From: Streptomyces sp. NBC_00223 | Lineage (GTDB): Bacteria; Actinomycetota; Actinomycetes; Streptomycetales; Streptomycetaceae | DNA length: 64,000 bases | Reading direction: 5' to 3' | Assembly: GCF_036199905.1 (NCBI RefSeq) | Contig: NZ_CP108109.1 | Span: 1,240,001-1,304,000 of the forward strand | Part shown: in pieces, positions 13,422-27,238 of the stretch | Layout of the letters: every line of letters begins with the position of its first letter | How positions within the stretch are numbered: the first letter of the stretch is position 1 | Program-made: the position numbers and the translations under genes | Notes under the pieces: generated by a model | Seen by the model: only the letters and a program-made list of their open reading frames with translations | The model's database searches: none | What the model was told of the DNA's origin: nothing

Positions 13422-14315
13422 ATGCCCGCACTGCGACTGCCACGAGTGGCACACCGCTTCACCGAGGTGAACGGCCTGCGGATCTTCTACCGGGAGGCCG
13501 GCCCAGCGGACGCCCCCGTACTGCTCCTGCTGCACGGCTTCCCCTCGGCCTCGCACCAGTACCGACGGCTGATCGACGCTCTCGGCGCCGACTACCGGGT
13601 GATCGCCCCGGACTACCCGGGCTTCGGCCACAGCGCGCTGCCCGCCGACCGTGGGTGGTCGTTCGAACGGCTCGCCGACGCCGTCGAGGGCTTCTGCCGG
13701 GCGCTGGAGCTCGACCGTTTCACCCTCTACGCCTTCGACTTCGGCGCCCCCGTCGGCTTCCGCCTCGCCACCCGGCACCCGGAGTGGATCGCTGGCCTGG
13801 TCGTACAGAACGGCAATGTGTACGAGGACGGGCTCAGCGACATGGCCCGGGGCTTCGTGGCCGAGGCGCCCGAGGTCGAGGGAGCCGAGAAGCGGGTACG
13901 GGACCTGCTGACGCTCGCGGTCACCCGGGGGCAGTACGAGGGCGGCGCCTCGGACCCGGCCACCGTCGCGCCCGAGGGATGGACCCTCGACCAGCACTTC
14001 CTGGACCTGCCCGACCGCAAGGACATCCAGGTCGACCTGGCGTTCGACTACAAGAGCAATGTGGCGCTCTACCCGCGCTGGCAGCGGTGGCTGCGGGAGC
14101 ACCGGCCGCCGCTGCTCGTGGTGTGGGGCGCGCGGGACGCCTTCTTCACCGTGGCGGGGGCGCGGGCGTTTCTGCGGGACGTCCCCGAGGCGGAGCTGCA
14201 CCTCTTCCCGACCGGGCACTTCGCGCTCGAAGAGCACGTCGGCGAGATCGCGCCGCTCGTCGCGGACTTCCTCGACCGGACGTGGGCCGACGTGCCGGTG
14301 GCGGCGGCCCGCTGA
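13422..14315 (+). CDS. Alpha/beta hydrolase (haloalkane dehalogenase/epoxide hydrolase-like)
   Basis: A 297-residue cytosolic hydrolase. LLLHGFPSASHQYRRLIDAL near residue 45 is the oxyanion loop, and YAFDFGAPVGFRLA near 110 places an Asp nucleophile (not Ser), as in dehalogenases and epoxide hydrolases. VVWGARDAFF near 240 and TGHFALEEH near 270 supply the acid and His. Substrate is unknown. GGGGAGGG precedes the ATG. A strong palindrome at 13329-13370 probably controls it. Confidence 0.9.
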   Translation: MPALRLPRVAHRFTEVNGLRIFYREAGPADAPVLLLLHGFPSASHQYRRLIDALGADYRVIAPDYPGFGHSALPADRGWSFERLADAVEGFCRALELDRFTLYAFDFGAPVGFRLATRHPEWIAGLVVQNGNVYEDGLSDMARGFVAEAPEVEGAEKRVRDLLTLAVTRGQYEGGASDPATVAPEGWTLDQHFLDLPDRKDIQVDLAFDYKSNVALYPRWQRWLREHRPPLLVVWGARDAFFTVAGARAFLRDVPEAELHLFPTGHFALEEHVGEIAPLVADFLDRTWADVPVAAAR

Positions 14316-18868: not shown

Positions 18869-19694
18869 ACTGCTCCTCCACGGCCTGCGACACGAGTGTG
18901 GTGACGGCCTTGAAGGCCCTGATCGCCTCGTACATGGTGGGCAGCGTGTAGGCCACCCGCCGCTCCCCCGCGCGCTCCACGCCGGGCACCACGGTGGCGG
19001 CTCCGGCCAGGTGCACGGCGTCGAACTCCAGTTCCACCGTGAAGGGTCCGGCCGCGGCCGGTTCGTGGCGCACGGCGAGCGCGGCCGCCTCCTTGGCCGC
19101 GGCCCGGATGTCGGCGGCGGTGCGCGCGGGCGGGCGGCACACGGCCGCGTACCGGGACACGTAGTCCTTCACCGCGACCGTACGGGCCCGGGGGGCGTAG
19201 CTCCGCGCGTCGATCCCCGTGCGGTCGTCGCCGGTCACCAGCACGACGGGGACCCCGTACTCGGCGACGACCAGCGCGTTGAGGTACCCCTCGCTGGCCG
19301 GCGCTCCGTTGACCCACACGCCCGTGATGGAGTTGGCGAGGTAGGTGTGGGCGAGGACGCCCTCGGTCCCGGCGCCGGTGTGATAGCCGACGAACGCGAT
19401 GCCGTCCACGTCGCCGTGCTGGACGCCCTCGACCATGGACAGGTCCTTGTGCCGGCCGGTGAGCATCTGGGCGCGCTCGTCCAGCTGCTCCAGCAGCAGA
19501 TTGCGCATGGTCCAGTGCGCCTCGTTGACGAGCACGTCGTCGGCGCCGCCGTCGAAGAAGCCCGCGACGGCGGCGTTGACGTCGGAGGTGAACATATGGC
19601 GGCAGCGCTGCCACTGCTCGCTGCCGGGCAGCACGTCGGCCGGCCAGGTCACACCGGTCGCGCCTTCCATGTCCGCCGAGATCAGGATCTTCAT
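18861..19694 (-). CDS. M55-family D-aminopeptidase (DppA-like)
   Basis: A 277-residue zinc peptidase resembling Bacillus DppA, which cleaves D-Ala-D-Ala and D-Ala-Gly-Gly. ISADMEGATGV at residues 5-15 supplies Asp8 and Glu10 metal ligands; VNEAHWTMRNLL near 58 and VGYHTGAGTEGVLAHT near 103 supply His ligands. It is first in the four-peptidase operon, whose members overlap by 4-8 bp. A DasR-like operator sits 68 bp upstream. Together the operon could degrade cell-wall-derived D-peptides (inference). Confidence 0.93.
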   Translation of the reverse strand: MKILISADMEGATGVTWPADVLPGSEQWQRCRHMFTSDVNAAVAGFFDGGADDVLVNEAHWTMRNLLLEQLDERAQMLTGRHKDLSMVEGVQHGDVDGIAFVGYHTGAGTEGVLAHTYLANSITGVWVNGAPASEGYLNALVVAEYGVPVVLVTGDDRTGIDARSYAPRARTVAVKDYVSRYAAVCRPPARTAADIRAAAKEAAALAVRHEPAAAGPFTVELEFDAVHLAGAATVVPGVERAGERRVAYTLPTMYEAIRAFKAVTTLVSQAVEEQYG

Positions 19695-25046: not shown

Positions 25047-25505
25047 TCAGCCGCTGGTCGCGGGCTGTTCCACCTTGGCGGCGAGGGCGGCGAGCACCTC
25101 GTCGTAGATCCGGTTGAGACCCTTGGGTGCGAACGTGCGCTCGAAGAAGCCGCCCACGCCGGTCGCACCCTGCCAGGAGGTGGCCACGACGACCCGGCTG
25201 CGGCCCTCGCCCGCCGGGGTGACGGTCCAGGTGGTCACCAGGGTGGAGTTGCGGTCGGTCTCGACCAGTTGGCCTGGGGTGGGCGCGGTGACGTCGAACA
25301 GGCAGTCGCGGACACGCTTGCTCGTGGCCTGGAGCCTCCAGTGCACGAGGGTGCCCGCGCCCTGGCCGCCCTCGCGCACCTCGTACTCGCTGAACTGCCC
25401 GGGAAGTACCTCGCCGCGGGTGCCGGCGTAGTCGGCGAGGGCGTCGTACACCCGCTCCGGCTCCGCTGCGACGATCCGCTCCGTGGTGGCCTCGACCTGC
25501 GCCAT
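25047..25505 (-). CDS. SRPBCC-family (polyketide cyclase-like) protein
   Basis: A 152-residue single-domain START-like protein: AQVEATTERIVAAEPERVYDAL opening, then VLPGQFSEYEVREGGQGAGT and the long C-terminal helix FFERTFAPKGLNRIYDEVLAAL. No catalytic residues can be assigned; a ligand cavity is likely. GGAGACGTC precedes the ATG at 25505. It diverges from the radical SAM gene across a short region holding a LexA-like box, which could affect both. Confidence 0.88.
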   Translation of the reverse strand: MAQVEATTERIVAAEPERVYDALADYAGTRGEVLPGQFSEYEVREGGQGAGTLVHWRLQATSKRVRDCLFDVTAPTPGQLVETDRNSTLVTTWTVTPAGEGRSRVVVATSWQGATGVGGFFERTFAPKGLNRIYDEVLAALAAKVEQPATSG

Positions 25506-25572: not shown

Positions 25573-25592
25573 TCGAATCTGTGTTCTATTAT
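25573..25592 (+). promoter_or_regulatory. LexA/SOS-box-like site overlapping a -10
   Basis: TCGAATCTGTGTTCTA (25573-25588) matches 10 of 12 defined positions of the actinobacterial SOS box (TCGAAC-N4-GTTCGA). TATTAT (25587-25592) overlaps its right half and could be the -10 of the radical SAM gene 41 bp downstream. Confidence 0.6.
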
Positions 25593-25632
25593 GGGGGCAA
25601 GGTTGCGGGGGCTGACACGGAAGGAGGCCGCG

Positions 25633-26703
25633 ATGCGCTGGCAACAGCTGAGCGGTGACGACTCCACGGGGGCGCTCTTCGGGACGGGCGCGGTGACCCG
25701 GACCTTCGACACCCCGGAGTTCCGCGGCATCACCTTCCACGAGATACGGGCCCGGACGATCCTCAACCGGGTGCCGGGCGCCTCGCGGATGCCGTTCGAA
25801 TGGACGATCAACCCGTACCGGGGGTGCAGCCACGCGTGCGTCTACTGCTTCGCGCGGCGCACCCACAGCTATCTGGACCTCGACACCGGGCTGGACTTCG
25901 ACACGCAGATCGTGGTGAAGACGAACGCGCCTGATCTCCTTGGGCGCGAACTCGCCTCGCCGCGCTGGAAGGGCGAGCACGTCGCCATGGGTACGAATGT
26001 CGACTGCTACCAGCGGGCGGAGGGCCGGTACCGGCTGATGCCGGGCATCCTCGCGGCCCTGCGGGACCGGGCCAACCCGTTCTCGATCCTGACCAAGGGG
26101 TCGCTGGTGCTGCGGGACCTCGACGTGCTGCGGCAGGCCGCACGCGTCACCGAGGTGTCCGTCGCGCTGTCCGTCGGCTTCCTCGACAACGGGCTGTGGC
26201 GCAGCGTGGAACCGGGCACGCCGTCGCCGCAGACACGGCTGGCGGTCTGCCGCACCCTCAACGAGAACGGCATCTCCTCGGCCGTCCTGATGGCCCCCGT
26301 GCTGCCCTTCCTCAGCGACTCGCCGGAGCAACTGCGGGCGACGGTACGGGAGATCGCCGCCGCGGGCGCCACGTCGATCACGCCGCTGGTGCTGCATCTG
26401 CGGCCGGGCGCGCGTGAGTGGTACATGGCCTGGCTGGCCCGCAACCATCCGCGTCTCGTACGGCGCTACGAGACGATGTACGCGGACGGCTCCTATGCGC
26501 CGAAGTGGTATCAGCGGCAGGTCACCCGCCAGGTGCACGAGTTCGCCGCCGAGTTCGGCTGCGGTCCCACCCGGCGCGGCCAGGCCCGGCGGCCGGCGGA
26601 CCCCGACGAACCGCCGGCGGCGGACCCCGGGTACGGGTCCGAGGCGCGGTCCGCGCCGGGCTCCCCGCCGGAGCCGGAGAATACCCAGCTCACGCTGATG
26701 TGA
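25633..26703 (+). CDS. Rv2578c-family radical SAM protein
   Basis: A 356-residue iron-sulfur enzyme. CSHACVYC gives the CxxxCxxC cluster ligands (Cys65, Cys69, Cys72) in INPYRGCSHACVYCFARR. The barrel continues with EHVAMGTNVDCYQ, SILTKGSLVLRDLDVL and PLVLHLRPGAREWYMAWL. These are family hallmarks, related to SplB-like repair enzymes; the reaction is not known. A perfect AAGGAGG lies 5 bp before the ATG at 25633. The LexA-like box upstream suggests induction by DNA damage. The C-terminal 40 residues are Pro/Glu-rich and disordered. Confidence 0.93.
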   Translation: MRWQQLSGDDSTGALFGTGAVTRTFDTPEFRGITFHEIRARTILNRVPGASRMPFEWTINPYRGCSHACVYCFARRTHSYLDLDTGLDFDTQIVVKTNAPDLLGRELASPRWKGEHVAMGTNVDCYQRAEGRYRLMPGILAALRDRANPFSILTKGSLVLRDLDVLRQAARVTEVSVALSVGFLDNGLWRSVEPGTPSPQTRLAVCRTLNENGISSAVLMAPVLPFLSDSPEQLRATVREIAAAGATSITPLVLHLRPGAREWYMAWLARNHPRLVRRYETMYADGSYAPKWYQRQVTRQVHEFAAEFGCGPTRRGQARRPADPDEPPAADPGYGSEARSAPGSPPEPENTQLTLM

Positions 26704-26722: not shown

Positions 26723-27238
26723 ATGGCGCTCATACGGTTGATGACCGAGGCCGATGTCCCGGCCGTGTCCAGGATACGGGTACGGGGCTGGCGGGCCGCG
26801 TACGGAGGGATCGTGCCGCGGAGCTATCTCGACGCCATGGACGCGGACGAGGACGCGGCCAGGCGTCGGGAGTTCCTCGCGCACTCGGCGGGCCGGGTGC
26901 GCGATCTCGTCGCCGTGGAGGCGGACGAGGTCGTCGGCTGGGCGGCCTTCGGCCCGTACCGCGGGGAGGACACGGGCGCCGAGAACGGTGAGCTGTACGC
27001 CCTCTATGTGCGGCCCGAGTCGATCGGTACGGGGATCGGGCGGGCGCTGACCGCCGCGGTGCTGGAACAGTCGGCCGAACTCGGGCGGCGGACCGTGGCG
27101 TTGTGGGTGCTCGCCGACAACGCGCGGGCCCGGCGTTTCTACGCGGCGGCGGGATTCGCCCCGGACGGCGCGGAGATGACCGACACATACGACGGCGTCC
27201 CCCTCCGCGAACTCCGCTACACCATCCCCCTCCCCTGA
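26723..27238 (+). CDS. GNAT-family N-acetyltransferase
   Basis: A 171-residue acetyltransferase. ELYALYVRPESIGTGIGRALTAAV (about residues 93-116) is the acetyl-CoA site, with G-T-G-I-G-R standing for the Q/R-x-x-G-x-G/A motif, and ALWVLADNARARRFYAAAGFAPDG is motif B. WRAAYGGIVP near residue 24 is typical of amino-acid or antibiotic acetyltransferases, but the substrate is unknown. It starts 19 bp after the radical SAM stop and is probably co-transcribed with it. Confidence 0.93.
   Translation: MALIRLMTEADVPAVSRIRVRGWRAAYGGIVPRSYLDAMDADEDAARRREFLAHSAGRVRDLVAVEADEVVGWAAFGPYRGEDTGAENGELYALYVRPESIGTGIGRALTAAVLEQSAELGRRTVALWVLADNARARRFYAAAGFAPDGAEMTDTYDGVPLRELRYTIPLP

Follow-up and report, generated by a model that had tools for sequence, protein, structure and literature searches.

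The gene for an Rv2578c-family radical SAM protein in the window (the whole stretch of DNA analysed, 64,000 nucleotides of a 7.96-Mb chromosome) is preceded by an actinobacterial LexA box that is conserved upstream of its orthologues, and the protein ends in a conserved pentapeptide resembling ligands of the bacterial sliding clamp. We consider it probable that the box is a functional LexA operator and that the product, a radical SAM enzyme of the Rv2578c/PA0069 branch, is tethered to the clamp and acts on damaged DNA at replication forks. LexA bound to the promoter, where the box lies over the -10 region, would keep the gene off; DNA damage would cause RecA-stimulated self-cleavage of LexA and release the promoter. 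As a member of the Rv2578c/PA0069 branch of COG1533, the product would use a [4Fe-4S] cluster and SAM for radical chemistry. Its tail, variable and probably flexible, carries the clamp-binding-like pentapeptide (QLTLM here) and would hold the enzyme on the DnaN sliding clamp. There it would act on damaged DNA at or behind the forks, where it would probably reverse or process a base lesion by a radical mechanism.

SOS control of this gene is already known, through a published orthologue in Streptomyces venezuelae, as is the more general theme of SOS control of COG1533 radical SAM genes. What is new is how widely the box is conserved, together with a proposed reassignment of the operator in the S. 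venezuelae promoter and the probable clamp-binding tail. A preliminary description of this DNA, which had proposed a LexA-controlled, SplB-like repair enzyme, is partly supported. The features of the locus are listed in Table 1.

Table 1. Features of the radical SAM (rSAM) locus, in window coordinates
Feature	Position	Strand	Basis or remark
Divergent SRPBCC (PF10604) gene	25047..25505	-	Common 127-nt promoter region with the rSAM gene
Candidate LexA operator (SOS box) TCGAATCTGTGTTCTA, 10/12	25573..25588	+	Sequence match; kept in orthologues
-10-like hexamer TATTAT, putative, over the right half of the box	25587..25592	+	Sequence
Ribosome-binding site AAGGAGG	25621..25627	+	By eye
Rv2578c-family radical SAM protein, 356 aa	25633..26703	+	NF038135, 512.3 bits (cut-off 430); PF04055, 41.5 bits
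CX3CX2C iron-sulphur motif, C65-C69-C72	25825..25848	+	Invariant in 63/63 aligned family members
C-terminal QLTLM, predicted beta sliding-clamp-binding motif	26686..26700	+	Sequence conservation
GNAT acetyltransferase ORF	26723..27238	+	19 nt after the rSAM stop; perhaps co-transcribed here

The radical SAM protein and its C-terminal tail

With a score above the curated cut-off of the NCBIfam model NF038135 (rSAM_Rv2578c) and an intact CX3CX2C motif, the protein belongs to the Rv2578c family. A single-sequence AlphaFold2 prediction was unusable for the fold (pLDDT 38). Several orthologues from other actinomycete families (L117, L126, L131, L135, L136, L137, L140, L141 and L258) are 505-736 aa long. 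The C-terminal part of the NCBIfam model for intein-containing Rv2578c proteins aligns from residue 72 of the window protein, the third cysteine of the cluster, and an intein at this point would explain their length.

The NF038135 match ends at residue 310. It is followed by a variable linker and then by five final residues that are again conserved: family tails end in QLTLL, QLSLL, QLTLM, QPTLF, QDTLF and similar peptides. The consensus for ligands of the bacterial sliding clamp is QL[SD]LF, and it is exemplified by Escherichia coli MutS, UmuC and Pol II. We used the pattern Q-x-x-[LM]-[FLIMV], a looser form of this consensus, and QLTLM matches it. The pattern occurs in the last 12 residues of 80 of 92 family proteins, which are not independent (30 are from the window's genus), compared with 0.5% of shuffled tails. 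Ten of the remaining 12 tails are variant-like (for example, APTLF, QLALPGF and QLTFP), while two (L288 and L290) show nothing similar. In an alignment of 15 sequences, Q352 is nearly invariant and L355 is invariant.

The motif was also sought in other homologues. Of 11 divergent actinobacterial ones (ten scoring below the model cut-off and one second copy at 49% identity), 10 have it and L252 was not readable; it also stands at the end of all seven proteobacterial relatives (QLSLF, QLSLL twice, QLTMF, QLRLF, QLRLL and QGELF). Eight distant relatives with a radical SAM domain lack it (mobile pair B, archaeal, clostridial, cyanobacterial and others). A ninth, L304, was dropped as an unannotated reading frame ending inside the domain.

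We infer that the tail tethers the enzyme to DnaN. SOS enzymes tethered to the clamp are known in E. coli, where Pol II, Pol IV and UmuC are SOS-induced and bind the clamp through a pentapeptide located at the C-terminus or close to it, as the Rv2578c family putatively does; these are polymerases, whereas the window protein is a radical SAM enzyme with a predicted clamp motif. Comparison with the polymerases of the same genome is weak: the DnaE and Pol IV frames contain QDDLF and QEDLF, but the loose pattern also matches the DnaE frame at five further places, and such a C-terminal motif was not found in the dnaE2-type and second Y-family frames. A literature search, with a scope lying mostly outside subscription journals, gave no paper with both 'sliding clamp' and 'radical SAM' among the matches listed, and as far as these searches reach the clamp-like tail of Rv2578c-family proteins is new. 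If the tail is a true clamp-binding motif, these enzymes would be found at replication forks, binding could be tested without knowledge of the substrate, and the search for that substrate would be steered towards replication-blocking lesions.

Two other views of the protein must be weighed against clamp-tethered DNA repair. The first is that of an SOS-induced enzyme acting on RNA, a protein or a metabolite, the tail marking it for degradation or serving some other interaction. Radical SAM enzymes vary widely, DNA is a presumed substrate of this one, and induction of the gene by mitomycin C does not by itself imply that the enzyme repairs DNA. Hydrophobic C-termini can, moreover, be recognised by proteases. 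A generic degradation signal would not, however, explain the glutamine and leucine at fixed places in the tail, its likeness to clamp ligands, or its distribution, since it is found in branches with SOS-type sites and is absent from the eight distant relatives. We therefore regard this alternative as unlikely, and a DNA-repair role for the enzyme as likely, with added support from the clamp-like tail.

The second, slightly less likely again, is that the protein is a true spore photoproduct lyase (SPL), SOS-induced and reversing the thymine dimer of UV-irradiated spores. SPL requires a fourth, hydrogen-donating cysteine. Among 63 aligned family proteins (L272, one of the seven proteobacterial sequences, was left empty) there is no invariant cysteine beyond C65, C69 and C72; position 125 is a cysteine in 52 and a proline in the other 11. 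Mycobacteria possess Rv2578c but form no endospores. No SPL family model appeared among the matches of the window protein up to E = 10 (the filters remove most of those beyond about 0.1); one family member scored only 10.1 bits with an SPL model. SPL structures in the PDB are weakly similar by profile over the CX3CX2C and EPGT segments (best E 0.21). Thirteen PDB profile matches have E values up to 1, and the eight of these to proteins other than SPL lie at 0.41 or more. The family thus has the cluster motif and an EPGT-containing segment in common with SplB (PDB 4fhc and 4k9r), but differs from it in having neither a fourth invariant cysteine nor a significant profile match. The authors of PMC9380542 and PMC3323433 interpret the gene or its relatives as SPL, whereas PMC12924846 gives 17.6% identity and an RMSD above 4 Å between an orthologue and Bacillus subtilis SplB. 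With every invariant cysteine lying within the cluster, 'SplB-like' holds only loosely for the window protein. The repair role in the preliminary description stands as likely, while membership of the SPL family is not supported.

The LexA box and its conservation

The box matches 10 of the 12 fixed positions of TCGAAC-N4-GTTCGA and starts 60 nt before the ATG of the radical SAM gene. Both the match and its overlap with a probable -10 hexamer had been pointed out before and are confirmed in the sequence, the promoter itself being putative. As a lone match the box would be weak because such sites are numerous: the window contains eight with at most two mismatches (mean of 2.2 in shuffled sequences) and the genome 623, compared with 271 for a reversed control pattern. 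Its weight comes from conservation upstream of orthologues rather than from the single match. As positive controls, the boxes upstream of lexA (11/12 and 10/12) and recA (10/12) were recovered in the same genome, and both deviations of TCGAATCTGTGTTCTA from the consensus recur there, one in lexA (the ATTCGA half) and the other in recA (the GTTCTT half). The second DnaE match of this genome, of the dnaE2 type, is also preceded at 90 nt by a LexA-like box with one mismatch. Two more with one mismatch occur in the window, at 14032-14047 and 19021-19036.

Orthologues were collected at three levels. In the window's genus, 34 of 35 genomes contain one at 76% identity or more; in the family Streptomycetaceae there was a match in 193 of 297 genomes; and in the class 119 of 296 genomes exceeded the cut-off of the family model. 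We compared the upstream regions of 111 Streptomycetaceae orthologues and of 52 from other actinomycete families, the latter total becoming 51 on omission of L204, which has no MRW start. Loci were picked from the match lists before their upstream DNA had been seen, with the exception of S. venezuelae, which was found through its box. The box was sought within the 100 nt preceding the start codon and, as a control, in the stretch 120-220 nt upstream.

In the Streptomycetaceae, a box with at least 9 of the 12 positions precedes 106 of the 111 orthologues (control stretch, 5/111; shuffled sequences, 3.2%), and 37 of the 111 have at least 10 (control, 0). Outside this family, 50 of the 51 regions reach at least 10 (control, 1/50; shuffled sequences, 0.4%) and 43 of the 51 at least 11 (control, 0/50), a score attained by only 2 of the 111 Streptomycetaceae boxes. 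These figures rule out a chance match. The columns of the box hold about 1.4 bits compared with 0.2-0.3 in the upstream flank, although the value for the right half is biased, this half having been used to place the alignment.

The two groups differ in detail. Outside the Streptomycetaceae, 45 of the 49 boxes that could be placed lie 23-25 nt upstream of the start codon, and TTGAC precedes the box by 11 nt in nine cases; judged from the sequence, this spacing would suit leaderless transcripts, with the operator occupying the spacer and the -10 element. Of 110 Streptomycetaceae regions, 105 have GTTCTA as the right half, and the -10-like hexamer takes the form TATT[CGA]T in 95 of the 110 promoters placed. 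The left half varies (GGGAAC in 61, TCGAAT in 26 and TCGCTC in 8), being mostly GAAT rather than GAAC in the window's genus and mostly GGGAAC in Streptomyces. The Streptomycetaceae operator thus appears less perfect yet strictly kept. Given the deviations of the left half and the few boxes at 11/12, its affinity for LexA may be lower.

Published data bear directly on this control. In PMC9380542 (Stratton et al. 2022), S. venezuelae vnz_31145, a 'Radical SAM protein', is listed among the ChIP targets of LexA; mitomycin C induces it 19.97-fold, and its LexA box is printed as TCGACCGTTCGCTC at position -61. We searched this 14-mer in 392 Streptomyces genomes, 99 of which have a match somewhere. 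In one genome (G578) it occurs once, on the strand opposite an Rv2578c-type gene and 25-38 nt before the ATG. This gene is 1032 bp long, the length implied for SVEN_6313 in PMC12924846, where the same gene is described as the attB gene of phage Samy. Since the published box is unique and the length agrees, G578 is presumably S. venezuelae and vnz_31145 (SVEN_6313) is very probably the orthologue of the window gene, although the coordinates in the latter paper are about 1 kb off and the printed -61 disagrees with the ATG assumed here. The two proteins are 76% identical and their genes have the same divergent SRPBCC neighbour; they differ in the box (GGGAACAGGTGTTCTA in S. venezuelae and TCGAATCTGTGTTCTA in the window), and a GNAT gene of the window kind is absent from the S. 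venezuelae stretch compared.

LexA occupancy and the 20-fold induction have thus been demonstrated by others in an orthologue (PMC9380542), and together with the conservation of the box they strongly support the LexA control proposed at the outset. The operator itself, in our proposal, would be the conserved box GGGAACAGGTGTTCTA rather than the published 14-mer, directly downstream of it: the former stands for the box that most of the family keeps and scores 9/12, while the latter scores 8/12 and occurs on neither strand of the 110 other family upstream regions. This reassignment provides a precise site for mutation in a well-studied Streptomyces promoter. Induction of Rv2578c by DNA damage was not found under that name in the literature searched; an M. 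tuberculosis study lists an unnamed RecA-dependent 'DNA repair photolyase' (PMC8151990), which may be Rv2578c.

It is very improbable that the conserved element serves chiefly as a promoter or as a binding site for a different regulator (such as PafBC or an ArsR-type protein), its likeness to the LexA box being incidental: although its right half and TATT[CGA]T are the most rigid part in the Streptomycetaceae (where the alignment was placed on that half) and ArsR sites resemble the SOS box (PMC8151990), the boxes of other families are near-perfect, a LexA ChIP peak lies on the S. venezuelae orthologue (PMC9380542), and a PafBC-type TGTC[AG][GC]-N10-TANNNT (the mycobacterial form only, from PMC8151990) lies within 150 nt in 0 of the 111 and 0 of the 51 upstream regions. 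A T-T-T-T-C-G stretch that precedes the -10-like hexamer by 17 nt in the window's genus looks suggestive of PafBC control, but it is absent from most family members outside this genus.

Neighbouring genes and more distant relatives

The GNAT gene had been assigned to the same unit as the radical SAM gene. It is close enough to be perhaps co-transcribed here, but is a local neighbour rather than a conserved partner: this GNAT gene lies within 1.5 kb at 16 of 30 loci of the window's genus and at 0 of 19 Streptomyces loci, which speaks against a functional partnership. The divergent SRPBCC gene is kept more widely (28 of 30 loci of the genus, 19 of 19 in Streptomyces and 0 of 12 in other families) and might also be LexA-controlled through the common promoter region. 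A role in anti-phage defence was considered and set aside, PADLOC having given no match.

SOS control of related genes has been described elsewhere. COG1533 'splB' genes are reported to be SOS-controlled in alpha- and beta-Proteobacteria (PMC3323433) and in Bacteroidetes (PMC8565304), and SplB-like proteins are tied to SOS gene neighbourhoods (PMC3765255). These systems resemble the present one in placing a radical SAM gene under SOS control. The proteobacterial relatives also have the clamp-like ending, and one is annotated as PA0069 family; they differ in their LexA motif and are 36-42% identical to the window protein over the aligned parts. Radical SAM proteins of the Rv2578c/PA0069 branch recur in the SOS regulons of several phyla, where the labels 'SplB' and 'photolyase' reflect a distant resemblance. 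We lean, with some reserve, towards the view that SOS-induced proteins of this type form a class of clamp-riding DNA repair enzymes, radical-based lesion processors recruited by a C-terminal peptide, common to Actinomycetota and Proteobacteria and distinct from SPL.

Some further observations concern these relatives. In four of six alphaproteobacterial cases (L266, L267, L269 and L271), on large plasmid records, GTTC-N7-GTTC, which we take to be the alphaproteobacterial LexA motif, lies near the start of the frame. Two haloarchaeal radical SAM relatives (L301 and L306) adjoin genes for the three-Cys-motif partner protein TcmP. Viral relatives (2 and 8 loci) were too few and too distant for alignment. 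One viral contig, IMGVR_UViG_2514752031_000001 (L238), ends inside the gene itself, with 97% identity over residues 24-52 (window 25702-25788), as would a prophage integrated in the radical SAM gene in the manner of phage Samy (PMC12924846).
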